A DNA stretch of 25,888 nucleotides from a virus, in IMG/VR virus record IMGVR_UViG_3300025141_008204, positions 1-25,888 of that record. The stretch is one strand, 5' to 3'. The position numbers were made by a program, and so were the translations under genes. How positions within the stretch are numbered: the stretch's first letter is position 1; each line of letters opens with the position of its first letter. Below are positions 510-25,888 of the stretch, one piece after another. Under the pieces are notes generated by a model. It was not told the origin of the DNA. It saw nothing but the letters and a program-made list of their open reading frames with translations, and ran no database searches.

Positions 510-538
510 ATTATACCTTACTCCCCACTAGTTCTCAC
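510..538 (-). promoter_or_regulatory. Promoter for the tRNA cluster
   Basis: A consensus TATAAT (minus strand, 515 to 510, in the context GGTATAATAG) is preceded at 17 bp by GTGAGA, a 4/6 match to TTGACA. It overlaps the last codons of the Clp gene and precedes the folded element and three tRNAs. The same GGTATAATAG core occurs in the well-formed promoter near 3952. Confidence 0.6.
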
Positions 539-1869
539 TCGGAAGAAGCCACATATTTCTTAGTATTTACAATTTTTACTTTACCTTTAACAATCCTCGG
601 GGTGTACAATCCTTCAGGTTTTTTAGGTACTAATTTGTGTAAAATAGAATCAGCAATTTGAATAGAAACATTATTCTTAATAAATCTAGCTATGTTTCTA
701 GCCCCATACTCCGCAGAGTATCCTCCTTCCACAATAAAGTTGATGAGGGAGTCTGTGATAACTATGGGAATGGTTTTTAGTTGTAAGGATACAATCTGCC
801 TTATCTGTGGTTTTGTTAGATTATTAAAGTGTACAATATCATCTAACCTATTTAGAAATTCAGGGCTAAAGTGACGCTTTACAGCCTTCTCGATAATATC
901 ACTCGTCACCTTCTCGGTAACTTCCTCTTCGCCAGCCTTAAATCCTACACGCTCAGTCTTAATATCACTCACACCTTGGTTAGAAGTAAAGATAAAAATA
1001 GATTCAGAGAAGTCCAGAGTTACTCCCATGTTATCTGTACAAGTTCCTTCATCTAAGAGAGACAATAGAAAATCATACAGCTTGTGGTGAGCCTTCTCAA
1101 TCTCATCAAAGAGAAACACCCAGCGATTAGACTGCTCTGCTTTCTCTGCTAAAAGACTCTTTTCGGAATGACCCACATAGCCTGGAGGGGCACCAATCAA
1201 TTTAGCGTACTCATGTCCTCCTGCGTACTCAGCACAATTAACCTTATAGAAATTGCCACTAAATTTCTCTCCAACCAACTTGGATAGCTGGCTCTTACCA
1301 ACCCCAGTCCTTCCTACAAATAAGAAAGAAGAGTGTTTTGCAAGGCCAGAAGCCATAAGTTTCATTGATTGTATAAGAGAAGATATAGCTTCGTGTTGCC
1401 CAATGATATTCTCACCTAAATATTTCTCTAAGTCCACTAAATCCTCAATAGACGATAAATTTATAGGATGACGCTCTCCAACATGGGGAAAGTTGCCATT
1501 GTCCTGCATATGTCTAAGAATGCTTCCCTTAACTCCAGAAAAGAACACATCCGTATTCAAATCTTGGCAGACAAATTCCAAGGAAAAGGGTGGATAAAGA
1601 CCTACAACAGCTTCATACGCTGCATCTATAATTTCATTCCTCTCCTCTATATCATCGGTGAGTCCTTCAATGAATATATCAGAATCAATAAGAAACTTTT
1701 TAACAATGTATTCTTTATAGGTTTCTATATTGATAGGAGCTTCAGCAGTCTCAATCTTGTTGCGAATGCTATTGTATAGTTTACGCTCTTCCTCTAACTT
1801 ATATCCTTTTACAAAAAGAACTAGGTTAAGCTCATCAGAAACTACTTTGTAATTCTGTCTCTTATTCAT
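535..1869 (-). CDS. Single-ring Clp/Hsp100 AAA+ unfoldase
   Basis: A 444-aa protein with one C-terminal AAA+ module of the ClpA/ClpB/ClpC D2 type after about 150 residues I do not recognise. Visible in order are Walker A GRTGVGKS (186-193), the substrate-gripping pore loop GAPPGYVG (near 226-233), Walker B VFLFDE (251-256), sensor 1 FTSNQG, arginine finger R341 in FLNRLDD, and sensor 2 R391 in YGARNI. All ATPase residues are present. The sequence TERVGFKAG (VGF at 308-310) lies at the ClpC/ClpA ClpP-docking loop, which ClpB lacks. The protein probably unfolds proteins by ATP hydrolysis in the host cytoplasm, alone or with host ClpP. Its start overlaps the preceding stop by 8 nt. It is much shorter than two-ring ClpA/ClpB. 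Confidence 0.88.
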   Translation of the reverse strand: MNKRQNYKVVSDELNLVLFVKGYKLEEERKLYNSIRNKIETAEAPINIETYKEYIVKKFLIDSDIFIEGLTDDIEERNEIIDAAYEAVVGLYPPFSLEFVCQDLNTDVFFSGVKGSILRHMQDNGNFPHVGERHPINLSSIEDLVDLEKYLGENIIGQHEAISSLIQSMKLMASGLAKHSSFLFVGRTGVGKSQLSKLVGEKFSGNFYKVNCAEYAGGHEYAKLIGAPPGYVGHSEKSLLAEKAEQSNRWVFLFDEIEKAHHKLYDFLLSLLDEGTCTDNMGVTLDFSESIFIFTSNQGVSDIKTERVGFKAGEEEVTEKVTSDIIEKAVKRHFSPEFLNRLDDIVHFNNLTKPQIRQIVSLQLKTIPIVITDSLINFIVEGGYSAEYGARNIARFIKNNVSIQIADSILHKLVPKKPEGLYTPRIVKGKVKIVNTKKYVASSE

Positions 1870-2197
1870 TTAAAAGATTATCCAACTCACTAAAAACAGA
1901 ATTTTCGGAACCTTTAGATGCCTTTGTCTTATCTTTAGGAGTCTCTTCCATCTTAATCATAAGATTGATAATCTTCACAACATTATTCTTGGAAGCCTGG
2001 GCTACCTTGAGCGTATCCACCATAAGATTCTTGGCAGCAGCATCCTGTGGGTTCTCATCCACCATAGCCCTAAAAAATCTGTGGGCTTCTAAAGCAAGTT
2101 TTCTATCTTCTCCTGCTTCATCTATAAGTTTTTTAGCTATTCTCTGAATCCTTGTTGGACCCAAGATAGCAGTTTTTGGAATGTAGTTTGTTACCAT
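1862..2197 (-). CDS. Unknown 111-aa helical protein
   Basis: I do not recognise this protein. I place the start at ATG 2197 (MVTNYIPKTAILGPT) because AAAGGA lies about 10 nt before it and it clears the upstream stop at 2205; the frame also opens further upstream from 2251. The product is charged and mostly helical, with a tetratricopeptide-like rhythm around EAHRFFRAMVDENPQDAAAK (about 37-56), an Ile/Val-rich helix at about 70-84, and a Lys/Ser-rich linker before a short acidic end. The next gene is the Clp unfoldase, whose start overlaps this stop, so an adaptor role is conceivable but unsupported by any motif. Confidence 0.75.
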   Translation of the reverse strand: MVTNYIPKTAILGPTRIQRIAKKLIDEAGEDRKLALEAHRFFRAMVDENPQDAAAKNLMVDTLKVAQASKNNVVKIINLMIKMEETPKDKTKASKGSENSVFSELDNLLNE

Positions 2198-2828: not shown

Positions 2829-3608
2829 TTAGTTCATGCTCACAGAATACTGTGAAGCAAGATCCCAAAGCTCAGAATTAAACTTCACATCTTTCTGGAT
2901 AGAAGTGATGGGTCGCACATTTCTGCCTGTCGAGCCATTCACAAAGCCGCCACGAATTAGGTTCTCCTGAGCCACATTGAAGGTAGACCAAAGATCAAGT
3001 CCTCTGTCTGCCTCTCTGCGAATCTTAGACATATCTTGAACAACTCCCTCGTCAGGATTCTCAAAACGAATCTTTGCAGCATCCGTAAAGAAGTCCACGC
3101 GAGAACGGGTAGAGAGTTGAACCTCCTTCCAGTCGTTAATCTTCTCCGCAATTCGGGAAGAGTTCATGACAAGTTTGCGGGAAGCATCCTGAACCTGCTT
3201 CGCCTCAAACCCAATGTGACGAATATGAATCTTACCGAAGTCCGATTCAGAGATCACCATTCCATTAGAACAGATCATACGGAAGATCCCACCTTGAAGC
3301 GTATAGCTCCCAGTACCGTTGTGGGCGTTAATAAGAAGCATCTCAGGGAAGGAGTCTCCTACCCCAAAAGATTCTTGCGTCATGTCCTCATGGCGAAGAC
3401 GAATAATGTGCTTGGCATGACCTCGACTCCATTTGCGAGGATTTACCTGCTGGGCTTTCCAAGTCGTCCAGCCCTCATCTTGAAGGATCTCAAGAATATC
3501 AGTAGTAGGAAGGAAAGAGTATCGACTCGATACCTGTCCATCTTCGGGAGCTTCTGCAAAAGCAGCAGGAGCGTAAGAACGCAGTAGTTCTTCGTTTTTA
3601 ATAACCAT
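2829..3608 (-). CDS. DUF932 family phage protein
   Basis: A 259-aa protein matching the DUF932 (phage/plasmid-like) family pattern: an early RYSFLPTTDILEIL segment, HIIRLRHED, a central FPEMLLINAHNGTGSYTLQGGIFRMICSNGMV core, and a helical C-terminal half. The family is widespread in phages and plasmids and has no firmly established function. The start is ATG 3608, overlapping the previous stop as TGATG, with GGAGG 10 nt upstream. It closes the transcript begun at the promoter near 3952 and is followed by a hairpin terminator. It is richer in GC and in common codons than the glycan genes, consistent with strong expression. Confidence 0.85.
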   Translation of the reverse strand: MVIKNEELLRSYAPAAFAEAPEDGQVSSRYSFLPTTDILEILQDEGWTTWKAQQVNPRKWSRGHAKHIIRLRHEDMTQESFGVGDSFPEMLLINAHNGTGSYTLQGGIFRMICSNGMVISESDFGKIHIRHIGFEAKQVQDASRKLVMNSSRIAEKINDWKEVQLSTRSRVDFFTDAAKIRFENPDEGVVQDMSKIRREADRGLDLWSTFNVAQENLIRGGFVNGSTGRNVRPITSIQKDVKFNSELWDLASQYSVSMN

Positions 3609-6601: not shown

Positions 6602-7467
6602 GATTTTTTTATAGTTTTAAAAGTTTTCTCGATTCCTGCCGATAGTCCACAAAAACTAACGCCGAGGGATGCTAAGAGACTACCATCTCCGTAATAATTG
6701 TTCTTATTTTTATTATAGTGCTTAGTCCAAATGGGAACCTGCTGACTAGTGAAAGAATTAATAATCGTTGCTACCTCATGTAGTGTATACTTATCATTAT
6801 AACATACATTTATGTCTCTAGGTAATCCTGGGTTAGTTGTCGTAGCATATTCTGTGAGATAGTGGATAAGTAAGAAGCATAAGTCCTCTACAAAAAAGAA
6901 GTCCATTTTAATATCTTCAAAAACTATAATGGGCTCTTTGCTTATTACATTTTTTATAGCTGTCTTAATAAATCTACTGTCTAACTCCTGTGGGCCAAAG
7001 ATATTAAATAGTCTAAAATTTACTTGATTACAATTTTGAGCTACCCTATTTGCTATTACATATTTAGAAAATCCGTAAGGAGTTGTAGGAATACGCTCCC
7101 CTAATTTAGTTTCGCTATAATCGCTTATGTCAACAGAATTATCAAATTCAGCCCCAGACCCTAAATTAATAAATAAGGTGTTGGTATTCTTTGTTAAATT
7201 TTCATACATTAAGATGTTGTCATAGAAAGTTGTTAGACTCTGCTCATCTTCTCTGAATCCTGTTTTCGCCGCACAATGAATTACTGCTTTAATATTGTGG
7301 TTTTCAAATAATAAATTTACTTCTTCTGGGTCCAGTAAATTACATGAAGATTTCTTTAGAGATATAACATCAAATCCAGCAGAAATTAAATATTTACTGA
7401 CATAGGATCCTATAAATCCAGCCCCGCCTGTAACTAAAATTTTACCAGTATTTTGATTGTGCAACAT
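6598..7467 (-). CDS. NAD(P)-dependent sugar epimerase/reductase (SDR)
   Basis: A 289-aa extended short-chain dehydrogenase with the nucleotide-binding loop GGAGFIGS near residue 14, an HCAAKTG segment, and the catalytic pair Y131/K135 in YGFSK, followed by FRLFNIFGP. It belongs to the broad family that includes GDP-fucose synthase, dTDP-sugar reductases and the reductase of yersiniose synthesis; the exact substrate cannot be read from sequence. ATG 7467 has AAGGAAGAG upstream and overlaps PanB by 26 nt. Placed directly after the E1, ThDP and PanB genes, it is a good candidate for the reduction that completes their product. Confidence 0.8.
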   Translation of the reverse strand: MLHNQNTGKILVTGGAGFIGSYVSKYLISAGFDVISLKKSSCNLLDPEEVNLLFENHNIKAVIHCAAKTGFREDEQSLTTFYDNILMYENLTKNTNTLFINLGSGAEFDNSVDISDYSETKLGERIPTTPYGFSKYVIANRVAQNCNQVNFRLFNIFGPQELDSRFIKTAIKNVISKEPIIVFEDIKMDFFFVEDLCFLLIHYLTEYATTTNPGLPRDINVCYNDKYTLHEVATIINSFTSQQVPIWTKHYNKNKNNYYGDGSLLASLGVSFCGLSAGIEKTFKTIKKS

Positions 7468-8365
7468 CGTCTAACTCTTCCTTCTTAATAGGGTAGGTGT
7501 AATCCTCGTTCGGAAACAAACCACCCTTAACTTCTCGTATATATGCAGAAATAGCTACTTCTGCCAATTTGAGAAGACCATCTGCTCTATCATCGCGCCC
7601 TAACGATCTTAAATCACTACAAGAGGAAATGTACTCTGTAAATTCAGAAATAACCTCAGGAATATAACACTTAGCAAACCAAGGTCTAAAGGATTGATAA
7701 AATCCCATAAGATCATGTATTATAACTAATTGACCATCCGTAGATTTACCTGCTCCAATTCCTAAAACAGGTACATCCAAAACCCTTGAAATTTTAGCAG
7801 CAGGAGCTTCTGGCATAGCCTCAAGAAGCAACGCACAAATACCTGCATTTTGAAGGGCTTCTGCATCCTCAAAAGTGGCATCAAAACTTTCTCTAGTTTT
7901 ACCCTGCACCCTATACCCCCCAAAAGAAGCACTACTTTGTGGGGTTAATCCTAAATGCCCAATAACTGAAACTCCAGCGTCCACAATACAACGAACTCTA
8001 TCAGCTACTCTCCTGCCTCCCTCTAATTTAACTGCATCCACTCCAGCCTCTTTAACAAATCTAATTGCATTTCTTACGGCTTCCGTATTACTAATTTCAT
8101 ACGATCCTTGAGGCATATCCCCAACAATGAAAGTGTTAGGGGCTCCGCGCCTGACAGCCTGTGAAAGAATTATCATTTCATTCATCGTTACAGGATTTGT
8201 GGTCTCATAACCAAGCTGTACCATTCCCCCCGAATCGCCAACAAGGATCATATCCACACCAGCTTTTTCAGCAGCTTGAGAAAAGGGGAGATCATACGCA
8301 GTAATCCAACTGATGAGGTCTCCACACTCTTTCATCTTCTTTAAACTAACTATGGTTTTTTTCAT
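7442..8365 (-). CDS. panB: PanB homologue (ketopantoate hydroxymethyltransferase family)
   Basis: A 307-aa TIM-barrel protein of the PanB family. Motifs match E. coli PanB: VGDSGGM (D44), VGDMPQGSY (D83), VKLEGG (K113, E115), GHLGLTPQS (H137), LLLEAMP (E182) and GIGAGKSTDGQ. All metal and catalytic positions are kept, so it is probably active. The known reaction transfers a hydroxymethyl group from methylene-tetrahydrofolate to 2-oxoisovalerate to give ketopantoate, a coenzyme A precursor. It is about 40 residues longer than the E. coli enzyme, with the extra length in the C-terminal third. It starts in an ATGA overlap with the ThDP gene. Within a sugar locus its true acceptor may be another 2-oxo acid or a keto sugar. 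Confidence 0.9.
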   Translation of the reverse strand: MKKTIVSLKKMKECGDLISWITAYDLPFSQAAEKAGVDMILVGDSGGMVQLGYETTNPVTMNEMIILSQAVRRGAPNTFIVGDMPQGSYEISNTEAVRNAIRFVKEAGVDAVKLEGGRRVADRVRCIVDAGVSVIGHLGLTPQSSASFGGYRVQGKTRESFDATFEDAEALQNAGICALLLEAMPEAPAAKISRVLDVPVLGIGAGKSTDGQLVIIHDLMGFYQSFRPWFAKCYIPEVISEFTEYISSCSDLRSLGRDDRADGLLKLAEVAISAYIREVKGGLFPNEDYTYPIKKEELDDVAQSKYW

Positions 8366-10134
8366 GATAGTGGAGAGATAATCATATTCTCATAAAATTC
8401 ATCTCTAGGGAGGAGAGGGGCCATATCCTCCAATGGTCTTCCTATTATAGATCCATCTTCCTTTTTCATAGCACTTATAGTTGGAAAAACTTCCTGCTCC
8501 TCATCACACATAACCTCACACACAACAGGACCAGAGACCTCCTCAATACAATACCTTATCTTATCCAAACATTCTCCAGAATTATTGATCTTTACATAAG
8601 ACAATCCGTATGCTTTTGTTATCTTCTCTATGTCAGGAAAAGAAACCCCCGACTTAGGACAAGTTCCAATACGATCCCCGTTAAAAAATCTGTCTTGAGT
8701 TTTTCTAATAGATAAGTACCCATTATTATTCCAAACAAAAAGCTTAATTGGGATATTATAATATTTTATAGTTTGTAGCTCTTGAACATTAAACTGGAAT
8801 GATCCATCCCCTGTAATACCAATGATAGTAGTACTAGGAGAACCAAAATAAGCTCCAATAGCTGCGGGAATCGTAAAGCCCATCTCTGCTTGTGCCCCAG
8901 GAACAATTAGTCTTTGCGGGTGTTTTAAATTTAGACTCTGACATGGGACATAATATGCTGATCCAGCATCCCCTACTACTGATGATTCTTTTGGGAGAAG
9001 AGTGCCTAATGTCTTCGTAAAATAATATAAATCTACAAGATCGCTATCACTAAAAGAAATATTATAACTCCACATATCTTTCCAACGCTGACACATATCA
9101 TTCCATGTTGGAGGAGTAGTATACTCCACTTCTTTTAGATGCGTAATAAATTCTTTAGCATCTCCTTTAACAAACTTATCTATTCTAACTGTTTCCTTTT
9201 GGTGTTCTTCTGGGTCAATATCCACCACTACTAATTTAGCCTCCCTTCCAAAATGGTCATAATTATAACCAATGGAAGGAATGCTTAAACTAGTTCCTAT
9301 TGCAAGAATAAGATCAGCATTCTGCAAAGCAAAATTTCCTGCTCTATCACCCTTCACACCTACTCTGCCTACATAGTTGGTATTATCTCCTCCTAACAGA
9401 TCAGTTGCTAAATAAGTACTCACTACTGGGATATTTAGCTTGGACACTGCTTCAGCAAACTCCTGTTGAGCATTTGCTAATCTTATTCCGTTCCCAGCTA
9501 AAATTATAGGTCTTTTAGAGTTATGTAAGAATTCAAAGTCCACCTCAACACTTTCTTCCGCTGAGTCAGGAGTATAGCCCTCCAAAGAATCCCCATCAAT
9601 TAAACTACTTTGTACATTCAAAGGAACATCTAACCATACTGGTCCAGGTCTTCCCGAAATACTTAAGTAATGAGCTTTCTCTAGAAGATACCTAATATCA
9701 TTAGGATTATCTACCATTTCTGAAAATTTGGTGAGGGGCTTTATAACCTCTAAAATATTTGCTTCCTGGGTTCCAAATTTTCGCAGCTTTGCTTGTGATT
9801 TATAACAAGTCTGGTTAATATTAACCTGACCAGAAATAAAAAAACAAGGAATACTGTCTTGCCAAGCATCCAGTAGTCCTGTAATAGTATTAGTTCCTGC
9901 ACATCCCGTGGTGGGCATAACCACCCCAATCTTACCTGTCTGCTTGGCGTACCCTACGGCTCCCATAGCACACGCTTGTTCATGATGATTACAGATGGGA
10001 GTAATATTTTTATTTTTTAAGATCCCATCTGTAAGATGCATATTTCCTCCACCCGTAAGAAGAAATACATGATTTACTCCTAACTTCTCCTCAATAAAAT
10101 TAGCGATGTAATCTGCTACTCTTATTTGTCCCAT
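8362..10134 (-). CDS. Acetolactate-synthase-like ThDP enzyme
   Basis: A 590-aa three-domain thiamine-diphosphate enzyme. The catalytic Glu is E52 (NHHEQACAMG), the middle domain is present (ILAGNGIRLA, DIDPEE), and the ThDP/Mg motif begins GDGS (442) and ends NNN (469-471). The family decarboxylates pyruvate and adds the two-carbon unit to an acceptor; members include acetolactate synthase and YerE, which acetylates a CDP-keto-dideoxyhexose in yersiniose synthesis. Its position immediately after the E1/RfbH gene favours a YerE-like role, while PanB next door leaves open a branched-chain keto-acid role. Its start overlaps the E1 stop by 13 nt. Acceptor and FAD use cannot be told by eye. Confidence 0.85.
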   Translation of the reverse strand: MGQIRVADYIANFIEEKLGVNHVFLLTGGGNMHLTDGILKNKNITPICNHHEQACAMGAVGYAKQTGKIGVVMPTTGCAGTNTITGLLDAWQDSIPCFFISGQVNINQTCYKSQAKLRKFGTQEANILEVIKPLTKFSEMVDNPNDIRYLLEKAHYLSISGRPGPVWLDVPLNVQSSLIDGDSLEGYTPDSAEESVEVDFEFLHNSKRPIILAGNGIRLANAQQEFAEAVSKLNIPVVSTYLATDLLGGDNTNYVGRVGVKGDRAGNFALQNADLILAIGTSLSIPSIGYNYDHFGREAKLVVVDIDPEEHQKETVRIDKFVKGDAKEFITHLKEVEYTTPPTWNDMCQRWKDMWSYNISFSDSDLVDLYYFTKTLGTLLPKESSVVGDAGSAYYVPCQSLNLKHPQRLIVPGAQAEMGFTIPAAIGAYFGSPSTTIIGITGDGSFQFNVQELQTIKYYNIPIKLFVWNNNGYLSIRKTQDRFFNGDRIGTCPKSGVSFPDIEKITKAYGLSYVKINNSGECLDKIRYCIEEVSGPVVCEVMCDEEQEVFPTISAMKKEDGSIIGRPLEDMAPLLPRDEFYENMIISPLS

Positions 10135-11405
10135 GTCTTTAAAACATCCTCAATGTAAGTAAAAGTTCCTTCTTTATACGAAGGAGAGGTTCCTAAGAAA
10201 AATACCCTATCTAAAACTTTATTTGCCTGTGGGTACTTCGAAAAATCATCCAGGTGTTCGTAGGCTGGGTGCAACAGAAGATTACCCGCAAAATAATTTC
10301 TAGTCTGAATTTGATTGCTCTCTAAAAAGGAAACTAATCGTTGCTTTATCTCTTTATTTTTACATACGATAGGCACCCCAAACCAAGAGGTACGAGCATT
10401 CTCTAACTCATTAGGGATATAAATATCTTTTATGTACTTCTTAAGGAGAGACTCTAATCTCACTTTGTTTTGTCTTCGTTTTTCATGAAGTTCGGGAGCT
10501 TTTTTAAGTTGGACTAACCCAATAGCTCCTTGAAAATCAAGAGGCTTTAAATTATATCCTATATTGGTAAAAACATATTTATGATCAACCACCCCCTCGT
10601 AATTATCAAGCCAGGGAGAAAATCTTTTTCCGCAAACACCATCTTTCAATAAATTGCATGATCCCACACAATAACAAGCTCTCCCCCACCAAGCAATACT
10701 TCTCGCTGTTTCTATCAATTCTTTATTATCAGACGAAATCATTCCCCCTTCTCCTGTAGTAATGTGGTGGGCGGGATAAAAGGAACAAGTGGAGGCTACG
10801 CTGTACTGAGAGAGGGGCTTGCCGTCCCATTCACTTCCTAAACTATCACAACCATCAAGAAGGAGGAAGATTCCCCTCTTTTCACACATAGAACATAAAG
10901 CATCCATGTCTACAGGATTACCCAGAACAGGAGAAAGAAATATAGCTCTAGTCTTATCTGTAATTTTCTCCTCAAGTTTGTTCATGTCAAAATTTAAACT
11001 TTCCATTTCTATATCAACAAACACAGTCTTTAAATTGTTATGGATAATAGGAGAAACAGTTGTGGGGAACCCTACTACCGAAACTATGATTTCATCTTCG
11101 TCCTCCCACCCAAACACCTTTTTTGCAGCGGCTAATAGAACAAGATTAGCAGAACTTCCTGAGTTTACCATGAGAGAGTGTTTCATCCCTATAGATTTAG
11201 AAAATCGGTTTTCAAACTTACTTACTTGCTCCCCTGATGCCAGCCAAAGTCCTCCCACCAACGAAGAAATAGCAGCCACTAACTCTTCTTTGTCCCAAAC
11301 TGGTCCTGAATAATATACAGGAGTTTCACACTTCTGATTGTATGCATACTTAAGAAGTTTATCTTCCTCTAGGGAATCTATAAAATTTTCTATGGCTTCT
11401 TTCAT
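10122..11405 (-). CDS. RfbH/E1-type CDP-4-keto-6-deoxyhexose 3-dehydrase
   Basis: A 427-aa member of the DegT aminotransferase fold in which the PLP lysine is replaced by His (H214 in FYPAHHITTGEGG), the hallmark of E1/RfbH and ColD dehydrases. It also has the E1-specific [2Fe-2S] cysteines C186, C244, C246 and C258. C186-X57-C244-X1-C246 has exactly the E1 spacing, and the last gap is 11 instead of 7. E1 uses PMP and electrons from an E3 reductase to remove the C3 hydroxyl of CDP-4-keto-6-deoxyglucose. No E3, CDP-glucose synthase or 4,6-dehydratase lies in the window, so host or distant phage genes must supply them. It starts in an ATGA overlap. Confidence 0.9.
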   Translation of the reverse strand: MKEAIENFIDSLEEDKLLKYAYNQKCETPVYYSGPVWDKEELVAAISSLVGGLWLASGEQVSKFENRFSKSIGMKHSLMVNSGSSANLVLLAAAKKVFGWEDEDEIIVSVVGFPTTVSPIIHNNLKTVFVDIEMESLNFDMNKLEEKITDKTRAIFLSPVLGNPVDMDALCSMCEKRGIFLLLDGCDSLGSEWDGKPLSQYSVASTCSFYPAHHITTGEGGMISSDNKELIETARSIAWWGRACYCVGSCNLLKDGVCGKRFSPWLDNYEGVVDHKYVFTNIGYNLKPLDFQGAIGLVQLKKAPELHEKRRQNKVRLESLLKKYIKDIYIPNELENARTSWFGVPIVCKNKEIKQRLVSFLESNQIQTRNYFAGNLLLHPAYEHLDDFSKYPQANKVLDRVFFLGTSPSYKEGTFTYIEDVLKTWDK

Positions 11406-15924: not shown

Positions 15925-16712
15925 TAAACAAACTCCAACTCATATTCTTGGTGGCACCCGATTGGAAGACTACCATAAATATGATCCACTTTAATATTTT
16001 TTCCCTCATTAAAAGCTTTTAGAAATACATCAGTTTTAATACCAGCATTAAGATTATTCATTTCGTCCGTTACTATATTCCAAGGAATGCTCACAAAATG
16101 AGACTTCTCATCACACATTCCTTTTTTGAAAACTAAAGGAACAAAATTTTGTAGCATAACTTCCAAAGAGGTAGGGGTGCGATAGTTTACCATGCACATA
16201 AAAGCCAGAATCTGTTTACTATCAAAAATATGTCCATCCAAAGCCAGAGGATATTTCCAATCAAGCTCTCCATCCCAAGTAAAAGTTAATCTTCCCTTAT
16301 CATTAGACTTAAATTCTGGAAGGGGTTGAGCTTTCCTTCCTACAGGATGAGACTCAGTTAGATGAGAGCCTAAACGAAGGCTAAAAATATAATCACGAAT
16401 TACTTCGTGTTTAGCCATAGTATCAATATTAGTCTCTCTAATAAAAAGACCATCATCAGGAGTAAAGAAAACATAAGGAGCTTCTAATTTATGAATTAAA
16501 GCTTCAACATCTTGCTTGAAGTCTGTTTGCCTCATAAACTTAATTTCAGGAAACTCGGAAACAATTTGTTTATAAGATTCTTCGTGTTCTGGGGATGGGT
16601 GATATAAAACAACATGCTCTACATCCCCACTAACAAATTCTTTGATTGAATTTAGCTGTGCCCTAAGTTGGAGGGCGCGATCCTTAGAAAATAAAATGTG
16701 AAGACAATTCAT
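15924..16712 (-). CDS. Putative glycosyltransferase (GT-A type)
   Basis: A 262-aa protein starting with LHILFSKDRALQLRAQL, a start typical of a family of glycosyltransferase-like proteins in surface-polysaccharide loci. VFFTPDDGLF (D86, D87) lies where a GT-A enzyme has its metal-binding acidic motif, and a WDGELDWKYPLALDGHIFD stretch follows. The family is poorly characterised. No membrane segment is seen. It starts in an ATGA overlap with the radical SAM gene. Confidence 0.6.
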   Translation of the reverse strand: MNCLHILFSKDRALQLRAQLNSIKEFVSGDVEHVVLYHPSPEHEESYKQIVSEFPEIKFMRQTDFKQDVEALIHKLEAPYVFFTPDDGLFIRETNIDTMAKHEVIRDYIFSLRLGSHLTESHPVGRKAQPLPEFKSNDKGRLTFTWDGELDWKYPLALDGHIFDSKQILAFMCMVNYRTPTSLEVMLQNFVPLVFKKGMCDEKSHFVSIPWNIVTDEMNNLNAGIKTDVFLKAFNEGKNIKVDHIYGSLPIGCHQEYELEFV

Positions 16713-18190
16713 ACTGGTGTGGTTCTCCTTAGAATACTGCTTGGAAGGTTTCCTTGTCCCATGCTATGCTCAAAAGCTACGGAGCCCCCAGCAGGATTAA
16801 AAGGTATATTTAATGTACTGCGAACCTTGGCTTCTAACTTCTCTCTTTCTATTACCAGATCGTTGGCAGAAATATGATCAGTCCAAACATAGGATTTATA
16901 CCCTCCATCAGGGTCTCCTTTATAATAGTCAGGTTCCTCTAAATAATTTAGATCCTTCTGATATAATATATCACCAGTCCTAGGCTGAGTATAAACATAA
17001 TGGTCTCCCTTCTTAACAGCCTCATCAAAGTATGGAGAGCCTGGATAAGTGGTTATGATGGTGCAATCGAAGTCCTCTGGTTTAGTTTCAAGTAACCAGT
17101 TCTTTGTATTTTCTATAGTCTCCTTACTTTCTCCTGCATGACCTATAGACATGAGAGCTTTTACCTTCAAGCCAGCATTCTTAGCGTACTGCATACACCT
17201 AGTATTAGCCTCTACATCAGCATTCTTCTCTATATTAGTCAGGATACGCTCGTCACCAGACTCAAAGCCTGTCAGGAGCCATCGGAACCCAGCTTGGTAC
17301 ATAAGGTCAGCTTGCCTCTGCGTGAATAGTTCAGCCTTTACAAAGCCTCTAAACATGAACTGCACATTAACTTCTTTTTGTAAGACAATCAACTTCTCCA
17401 AAAGAGCTTCCCACTCTTTACTTACATTCAACTCATCATCATAGAACATAAAACCAGTAAATCCATAAGTATCATAGAGATGACGCACTTCAGCTACCAC
17501 AGAATCAGATGATCTAGTTCTAATTCTTCTCAGAAATGGAGAATTTCTTCCCCCACAAAAAGTACACTTGAAAGGACAACCTAGTTGACAAATTAAACTC
17601 GTAGCTTTAGCTCCCTCGATATTGTAATGGTAAGAATCAGCATCCACTAAATGACGAGCAGGAAAAGGAAGCTCCTCTAACTCGTCATTAGTTAAGAATA
17701 AATTCCCTTTAGGAACATCAGCATCTACTATACCTTTGTCCAAATCAAGAGCCTCAAAGATAGCTTTCTCTCCATCCCCTGCAACAAGCACATCAAAATT
17801 ATCTAACAAGGCTTGAATGTCTTTCGTAGCTCTTCCAGGAGTTTTCTCCTTCTTCATAGCAGAATGCATAAGGGAAGGATGTGTTCCTCCTAAAATAACC
17901 TTAGATCCTAAACAAAACTCTTTGAGGTATTCAGCTATCTTAAAGGCAGACGGTACTTGAGGAGTGGTTGCAGTTAAACCAAAAGTCTTCATAAGAGGAT
18001 TTTGGTTTAAGTAAGTATCTAAAACTTCCTCACAATTCTCTACTCCAGCTAAATCTAGAAAATCAACAGAATATCCCCTCTCTTCTAAAGCAGCAGCTAC
18101 CTTTAAGATTCCTATATGCATAAAGACCCTTTCATCTAACAAAAAGGGGGAAGGGGGAGTAATTAAACAAATTTTATTTTTGAATAACAT
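16709..18190 (-). CDS. B12-binding-domain radical SAM enzyme
   Basis: A 493-aa protein with an N-terminal Rossmann-like domain of the B12-binding type (ICLITPPSPFLLDERV, ALEERGYSVDFLDLAG, VILGGTHPS, VLVAGDGE) and then a radical SAM domain with the CxxxCxxC motif C205-x3-C209-x2-C212 (GCPFKCTFCGG) for the [4Fe-4S] cluster. Later segments MFYDDELNV, LTGFESGDERIL and MSIGHAGES are typical of the family. Members methylate unactivated carbons or do other radical chemistry. The classic DxHxxG cobalamin motif is not evident, which is common in this group. A sugar C-methylation or rearrangement would fit the locus but is not demonstrated. Confidence 0.88.
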   Translation of the reverse strand: MLFKNKICLITPPSPFLLDERVFMHIGILKVAAALEERGYSVDFLDLAGVENCEEVLDTYLNQNPLMKTFGLTATTPQVPSAFKIAEYLKEFCLGSKVILGGTHPSLMHSAMKKEKTPGRATKDIQALLDNFDVLVAGDGEKAIFEALDLDKGIVDADVPKGNLFLTNDELEELPFPARHLVDADSYHYNIEGAKATSLICQLGCPFKCTFCGGRNSPFLRRIRTRSSDSVVAEVRHLYDTYGFTGFMFYDDELNVSKEWEALLEKLIVLQKEVNVQFMFRGFVKAELFTQRQADLMYQAGFRWLLTGFESGDERILTNIEKNADVEANTRCMQYAKNAGLKVKALMSIGHAGESKETIENTKNWLLETKPEDFDCTIITTYPGSPYFDEAVKKGDHYVYTQPRTGDILYQKDLNYLEEPDYYKGDPDGGYKSYVWTDHISANDLVIEREKLEAKVRSTLNIPFNPAGGSVAFEHSMGQGNLPSSILRRTTPV

Positions 18191-25030: not shown

Positions 25031-25546
25031 CTAACCTTGTCTCTGGGGTTTACTTATGTCTAATTCGGTCTTATTAATGTCCTTGTAGCCCATATCATTT
25101 GCTCTATCATAGGCTTCTGCCGTCAGTTTTTTAGCTCTTTCTTTTTTTGCTAGAGCCTCCTTGTCAGATAATTTTGTAACTAATCCGTCTTCAGCCATCT
25201 TATCGTAATTTAAATTTGCTGGTCTATAGCGGTAAGACTCATCATCCTGAGAATTTCTAGACGCTTCAATCTGTCGTCTAAGGAAATTATTTGCAGAATT
25301 CTGATCATATCCATCTTCAGCATGTTTTTGATAGCGTCTTTTAACAGTATGAAAATCATTAGCATTAGAACCTTTGTTTCCACTACCGTCATCCTTAAAA
25401 GATACTGCCACTCCCTGCTGCTGCCAATATCTAGAAGATAACTTGTTACACTCTGGGCATCTGGTTCTATCAGGAGCTTTACCTAATCTACACTCTCGGT
25501 CCCAATAAATCTTACACTCTCTACATATCCATTCGTAAGTAGGCAT
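25031..25546 (-). CDS. FmdB-like zinc-ribbon protein with long charged tail
   Basis: A 171-aa protein. The start at ATG 25546 (MPTYEWICRECKIYW) is chosen because it overlaps the RNR stop as TAATG and gives the standard FmdB beginning; an in-frame upstream extension to 25576 would lie inside the RNR gene. The four zinc cysteines are CREC (9-12) and CPEC (about 31-34). The remaining 130 residues are charged and low in hydrophobics (YRYRPANLNYDKMAEDG, AKKERAKKLTAEAYD), probably disordered or extended. It is larger than its relative at 5004 and shares only the N-terminal ribbon. Placed between RNR and helicase; function unknown. Confidence 0.8.
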   Translation of the reverse strand: MPTYEWICRECKIYWDRECRLGKAPDRTRCPECNKLSSRYWQQQGVAVSFKDDGSGNKGSNANDFHTVKRRYQKHAEDGYDQNSANNFLRRQIEASRNSQDDESYRYRPANLNYDKMAEDGLVTKLSDKEALAKKERAKKLTAEAYDRANDMGYKDINKTELDISKPQRQG

Positions 25547-25888
25547 TAGCATTGACCCTCCGCTGCCATAGAACACGAATCTCCTGTAGCCAAGGAAGGT
25601 TCGGCAAATACCGTCATATGCTCTTCGATGCTTTCTGGAGTAAGGGGGATAGCTTCCAACGGCTCACCTTCCTTTGCTCCTGCTCTATACACCGTCAACC
25701 CTTTCAGGTACGGAGCATAATCCAAAGCTGCTTGAGAGAATTCCTCAGGTGTAGAAGTGGAAGGGAGATTAATAGTTTTCGAGATACAGGAGTCCATGTA
25801 TTTTTGGATCGTCGCTTGTACCCGAATGTGGTCTTCGGGGGCCACATCATAGGCTCCGACGAAGCATTCAAGTGATCTGTCTTTTTCA
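25546..25888 (-). CDS. Class II (B12-dependent) ribonucleotide reductase, C-terminal part
   Basis: The frame is open to the right edge, so this is the last 113 residues of a longer enzyme. The sequence CFVGAYDVAPEDHIRVQATI, then SKTINLP, then LKGLTVYRAGAKEGEPLEAI is the conserved end of the adenosylcobalamin-dependent ribonucleotide reductase family, which reduces ribonucleotides to deoxyribonucleotides. The tail has two cysteines (CSMAAEGQC, C-X6-C) suited to shuttling electrons to the active site. The class II call rests on this conserved end, and the catalytic core is outside the window. It requires cobalamin but no oxygen and no separate radical subunit. Confidence 0.85.
   Translation of the reverse strand, partial: EKDRSLECFVGAYDVAPEDHIRVQATIQKYMDSCISKTINLPSTSTPEEFSQAALDYAPYLKGLTVYRAGAKEGEPLEAIPLTPESIEEHMTVFAEPSLATGDSCSMAAEGQC

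Follow-up and report, generated by a model that had tools for sequence, protein, structure and literature searches.

A phage single-ring Clp-type unfoldase with a conserved candidate ClpP-docking tripeptide

ClpA carries an IGL/F tripeptide that is absent from ClpB and Hsp104, and grafting the loop onto ClpB gives ClpP-dependent degradation (PMC5540906). Natural ClpX proteins with VGF and LGF are also on record (PMC8745299). Clp parts known from jumbo phages comprise ClpA, ClpX, ClpP, and ClpS (PMC7824862; PMC6102473); phage ClpS has been suggested to deliver targets to the ClpAP of the host (PMC7824862), and phage Atu_ph07 has a ClpP of its own (PMC6102473). A search of open-licence papers, for phages as well as Planctomycetota, turned up no account of a ClpA/C-type single-ring motor that has the N-terminal domain reported here.

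The window, that is, the whole stretch of 25,888 nucleotides that was analysed, is a 25.9-kb viral contig with genes for a UvsX-like recombinase, a gp32-like SSB, and a DnaB-like helicase, indicating a T4-like phage. It encodes a 444-aa Clp-type protein (hereafter the motor; Table 1). A first scan found about 50 full-length viral relatives and a second one added more; a 97%-identical copy lies on an independent contig (L194). The carriers, which are T4-like phages and mostly marine, form a widespread group. The neighbours of the motor gene are uvsX, DUF932, and dCMP-deaminase-like genes, and this company suggests early or middle expression, in the phase of DNA metabolism. The DUF932 protein of the window (2829-3608, minus strand; Pfam 9e-36, phrog_12094) is encoded near the motor in many relatives.

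Only one AAA+ module was detected by Pfam in the motor, composed of AAA_2 at residues 179-345 and ClpB_D2-small at residues 362-416, and no D1, Clp_N, or zinc-ribbon domain was listed. The initial annotation had described a single ClpC/ClpA-like D2 module without the usual D1 ring, which was in agreement with this result. Upon alignment of 41 relatives, which were 36-68% identical to the query, we found that the Walker A, Walker B, sensor 1, arginine finger, sensor 2, and GYVG pore loop were kept throughout, so that the protein has both the domains and the motifs of an Hsp100/Clp AAA+ D2 module. The top NCBIfam model was ClpA with 233 bits, below the equivalog cut-off of 993, a shortfall to be anticipated when half of the protein is present. 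The product of 535-1869 is thus a single-ring Hsp100 motor with a ClpA/ClpC-type D2, without D1, and with intact ATPase and pore motifs.

Table 1. Features of the motor gene and its upstream partner in the window
Feature	Window position	Strand	Basis
Single-ring Hsp100/Clp-type AAA+ unfoldase, 444 aa	535..1869	-	ATG-start ORF; AAA_2 and ClpB_D2-small
N-terminal domain, residues 1-115, candidate substrate/adaptor-recognition domain	1525..1869	-	Separate model; homology to cellular N-domains
Flexible linker, residues 116-136	1462..1524	-	pLDDT <50 at 114-136; length varies in alignment
Walker A GRTGVGKS, residues 186-193	1291..1314	-	G186, T188, G189, G191, and K192 invariant in 41 sequences
Pore loop PGYVGH, residues 229-234	1168..1185	-	P229, G230, and G233 invariant, Y231 and H234 at least 90% (41 sequences)
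Walker B VFLFDE, residues 251-256	1102..1119	-	F254, D255, and E256 invariant (41-sequence alignment)
VGF tripeptide, residues 308-310, candidate ClpP-docking plug	940..948	-	Conserved in relatives; flexible loop 306-315
R341, arginine-finger position (FLNRLDD)	847..849	-	Invariant in 41 sequences
R391, sensor-2 GAR motif	697..699	-	Invariant in 41 sequences
c1, 111-aa predicted helical protein, candidate adaptor or substrate	1862..2197	-	Directly upstream of the motor in 46 loci

The whole-protein AlphaFold model of the motor had a pLDDT of 84. Its closest VIA-align matches were ClpC chains from ClpC-ClpP complexes (Z 29.5-30.9, rmsd 2.5-2.8, 291-297 residues), with the ClpB D2 trailing by 1-2 Z units and ClpB, Hsp104, and the ClpA D2 together lying within about two to four; the ClpB D2 and Skd3 structures matched at Z 26-29. 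As ClpB D2 scores near ClpC, the fold alone does not discriminate between the classes; it identifies an Hsp100 D2, and it is the tripeptide that points to ClpP.

The spacing from the sensor-1 TSN/TTN to the tripeptide was identical for the VGF of the motor and the IGL of Escherichia coli ClpA (TSNQGVSDIKTERVGF and TTNAGVRETERKSIGL, respectively), whereas E. coli ClpB had no such tripeptide at the corresponding place after sensor 1. It had been noted before that TERVGFKAG lies where ClpA has IGL and that ClpB-type proteins lack the element, and both statements hold in these sequence comparisons, the second for E. coli ClpB. The motor therefore has, at the D2 loop, a docking tripeptide of the IGL/IGF/VGF kind that characterises ClpA and ClpC. 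In the 41 aligned relatives, position 308 was V, L, or M in every sequence, position 309 was G in 38 and S in 3, and position 310 was always F. Between G299 and F334, G309 and F310 were the only columns with at least 90% identity in these relatives, and the adjacent loop positions varied freely. The pattern [VILM]G[FL] occurred in 65 of the 69 distinct viral loops (the exceptions being VGY once and LSF three times), compared to 2.9 expected by shuffling, a procedure that disregards common ancestry; the flanks serve as an internal control, having the same history and yet having lost their identity. Residues 306-315 had a pLDDT below 50 in the AlphaFold model, as expected of a flexible docking loop, which speaks against a buried VGF segment, the finding that had been named as contradicting the docking proposal, a model being no substitute for a solved structure. 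These patterns show that the tripeptide is under selection. It is a candidate docking element of the ClpP type, which would bind ClpP; it could also serve a partner other than ClpP.

When residues 1-115 were modelled separately, they formed a beta-hairpin and five helices with a pLDDT of about 96 over residues 11-100. This N-domain falls in no Pfam or PHROG family. A unique N-terminal region of 150 residues had been proposed for the protein; the region is present, but its make-up is a domain of about 115 residues followed by a linker of about 20, and it is not unique. A domain of about 115 residues is common to all viral members and to an unnamed cellular family of single-ring Clp proteins, and comparison of the viral with the cellular N-domains by hhalign gave a probability of 96% (E 2.4e-9). 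Among other candidates for the origin of the N-domain, homology to T4 gp26/PF12322 was not adopted (hhalign probability 1% with the viral, 12% with the cellular, and 8% with the merged profile). A match of RHEph01 to residues 60-119 (E 0.01) was dropped because it lay on the strand opposite to the annotated gene, and PDB profile matches to Fem-3 binding factors (E 0.02), which spanned 45 residues only, were taken as chance.

The cellular relatives came from a scan of bacterial and archaeal genomes, which yielded 135 relatives. The best 80 of these were examined further and were mostly single-ring proteins of 430-510 residues from Planctomycetota, Riflebacteria, and others. The unnamed family with the same N-domain (L115-L193) derives mainly from metagenome-assembled genomes of Planctomycetota and Riflebacteria, with Wallbacteria and Schekmanbacteria also represented. 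Its members have the architecture of the phage motor, in which a homologous N-domain stands directly before a ClpA/C-type D2. From the best 80 of the 135 relatives, 57 of the 62 distinct cellular loops contained [VILM]G[FL], mostly as [MIV]GF, compared to 2.8 by shuffling. The two groups differ in that identity in D2 is at most 41%, and the viral proteins form one clade with a support of 100/100 and a long stem of 1.09, apart from all cellular ones sampled. They differ as well in the upstream gene c1, which accompanies the viral motor and was not found in the cellular single-ring loci. No ClpP lay near the cellular family genes within the fetched flanks, and no functional neighbour was common to all of these loci. 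As far as can be seen, the combination of N-domain and D2 is not a phage invention.

Compared with the described systems, the motor shares its D2 fold, its motor motifs, and the position of the docking tripeptide with ClpC and ClpA, the double-ring, ClpP-dependent Hsp100 proteins, from which it differs in having a single AAA+ module, with neither D1 ring nor Clp_N repeat domain, and roughly half the size. It resembles ClpX, the single-ring partner of ClpP, in having one AAA+ ring, a small N-domain, and an xGF docking loop, whereas its sequence belongs to the ClpA/C D2 class and the Pfam scan listed no zinc-binding N-domain. ClpB NBD2 and Skd3 have the same single-module D2 fold; from ClpB/Hsp104 the motor is set apart by the absence of D1 and the presence of the ClpP tripeptide, which E. 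coli ClpB lacks. The two-ring ClpA-like proteins and ClpS adaptors of phages (jumbo phages, phrog_4871) are likewise Clp parts of phage origin, and the two-ring phage relatives sampled (L051-L081) were about 690-930 aa long and lacked the N-domain of the motor.

The commonest arrangement of c1 and the motor was an overlap of 8 nt, as in the window (1862-1869). The C-terminus of c1 has a recurring S.F..L..L motif, and no family was assigned to the protein. The c1 gene, which the initial annotation had passed over, is translationally coupled to the motor, and the obvious guess is that its product is an adaptor or preferred substrate. It may instead be a small terminase subunit: one c1 member matched a terminase small subunit PHROG (E 0.047), and no gp16-like gene directly adjoined the terminase in two relatives (G022 and G035), while comparison of c1 with T4 gp16 alone gave an hhalign probability of 0.1%. 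Downstream of the motor, another locus has a conserved gene of about 190 aa (cluster c8; L010, 12633-13223, plus strand) that looks by eye like sigma region 2 (gp55-like) and had no PHROG or Pfam match.

A ClpP partner encoded by the phages themselves was also searched for. None of the 53 viral contigs (38 and 15), most of them fragments, contained a member of the Pfam family. Among them, the IMG/VR contig G022 (129.9 kb) is a complete genome, as shown by circular permutation: the two ends of the related contig L114 meet inside it, and the termini of G022 itself share a 574-bp overlap at 89%. This complete relative encodes the motor but lacks ClpP, so that reliance on the ClpP of the host is the best reading. 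When E. coli ClpP was compared with all fetched loci by tblastn, the only match was a phage-encoded ClpP in L061 (8231-8915, plus strand), which is 40% identical to the E. coli protein and is encoded about 1.4 kb downstream of a two-ring ClpA-like motor; in having its own ClpP, this locus is like Atu_ph07 and unlike the single-ring family. L114 (QCKN01000003.1) is a 130.6-kb T4-like phage contig from the Prochlorococcus single-cell assembly AG-409-P03, which hints at a cyanobacterial host for this relative, not for the window phage. The Pfam search found no ClpP over the cut-off in that assembly, and no photosystem genes, taken as a marker of cyanophage hosts, were found in the phage contigs tested.

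We consider it probable that the motor, a phage single-ring unfoldase, docks on the ClpP of the host and that its N-domain, perhaps together with c1, picks the substrates. We infer that six copies would assemble into one ring, in which the N-domain, perhaps with c1, would capture particular proteins and the GYVG pore loops would thread them through in an ATP-driven manner. At the distal face, the flexible VGF loops would insert into hydrophobic pockets of the host ClpP barrel, in which the threaded protein would be degraded. The phage would then provide motor and specificity, and the host the peptidase, presumably in the early or middle, DNA-metabolism phase, and the motor may in this way redirect host ClpP to new substrates, as first proposed for this locus. 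A bolder version, which we hold only tentatively, is that c1, as adaptor or substrate, and the unfoldase form a two-gene phage module making host ClpP a phage-programmed protease, that the undescribed N-domain is common to uncharacterised ClpP-dependent single-ring Clp proteins of Planctomycetota and relatives, and that a ClpX-like way of working arose independently from a ClpA/C D2.

Action without proteolysis is also conceivable: as a single-ring unfoldase or disaggregase, the motor could take apart phage or host complexes in the manner of the ClpB D2 or mitochondrial Skd3, with the tripeptide binding something else or being a remnant. The ClpB D2 and Skd3 structures are nearly as close to the motor as ClpC (Z 26-29 vs 31), and the absence of ClpP from the 53 contigs would fit; however, we regard such an activity as unlikely, since E. 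coli ClpB has no tripeptide, whereas here G and F are kept amid unconstrained loop neighbours, and a remnant would have decayed at an overall identity of 36-40%. The N-domain brings up a role in virion assembly, in which a domain of the tail-assembly-chaperone type would bring the motor to tail proteins (e.g., the tape measure) for folding, threading, or clearing. A resemblance of this kind was suspected from the sequence pattern before folding, the N-domain had as its three best VIA matches phage or phage-like proteins, namely 5ir0 (Vibrio PICI-like ORF19), 3klu (YqbN), and 2ob9 (HK97 tail assembly chaperone), and several BFVD matches carry the name tail assembly chaperone. The VIA matches were weak, though (Z 3.4-3.9), and a Z below 4 does not reach the values at which real similarity can be told from arrangements that are simply common, so we treat the resemblance as a lead. 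Profile comparison with T4 gp26-type proteins gave probabilities of 1-12%, the domain is also present in Planctomycetota proteins of cellular origin, around which no phage context was seen, and in G022 the terminase and the gp26-like gene lie at distances of about 30 kb and about 40 kb, respectively, from the motor, which makes a role in assembly improbable.

That bacterial genomes encode the same architecture could mean that the phages carry, as cargo, a housekeeping Clp gene taken from a host, which simply raises general proteolytic capacity during infection. This is very improbable: the viral proteins form a single deep clade apart from the cellular ones sampled, and the motor is fixed in one gene pair with c1, indicating an old phage gene rather than recent cargo.

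Should the motor indeed dock on the ClpP of the host, a large group of ocean phages would steer the main soluble protease of that host through a motor, not through an adaptor of the ClpS type. In that case, the presence of this N-domain in Planctomycetota and Riflebacteria also suggests that a class of single-ring ClpP motors has been overlooked. As the motor is small and single-ring, its docking, its substrates, and the role of c1 are directly testable.

The rest of the window has further features. Three consecutive tRNA genes for Arg(TCT), Leu(TAA), and Ile(TAT) lie at 181-415 on the minus strand. At 7442-11405 (minus strand), adjoining genes encode PanB (3-methyl-2-oxobutanoate hydroxymethyltransferase, over the NCBIfam equivalog cut-off), an acetolactate-synthase-like TPP enzyme, and an RfbH-like DegT aminotransferase (below the cut-off). 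They are embedded in a cassette that encodes sugar epimerases and glycosyltransferases; such a set is unusual in a phage and possibly serves the synthesis of a branched or deoxy sugar. The cassette also includes a B12-binding radical SAM protein (16709-18190, minus strand), and at 25546-25887 (minus strand) the contig end cuts a B12-dependent (class II, NrdJ-like) ribonucleotide reductase, of which the C-terminal piece is present.
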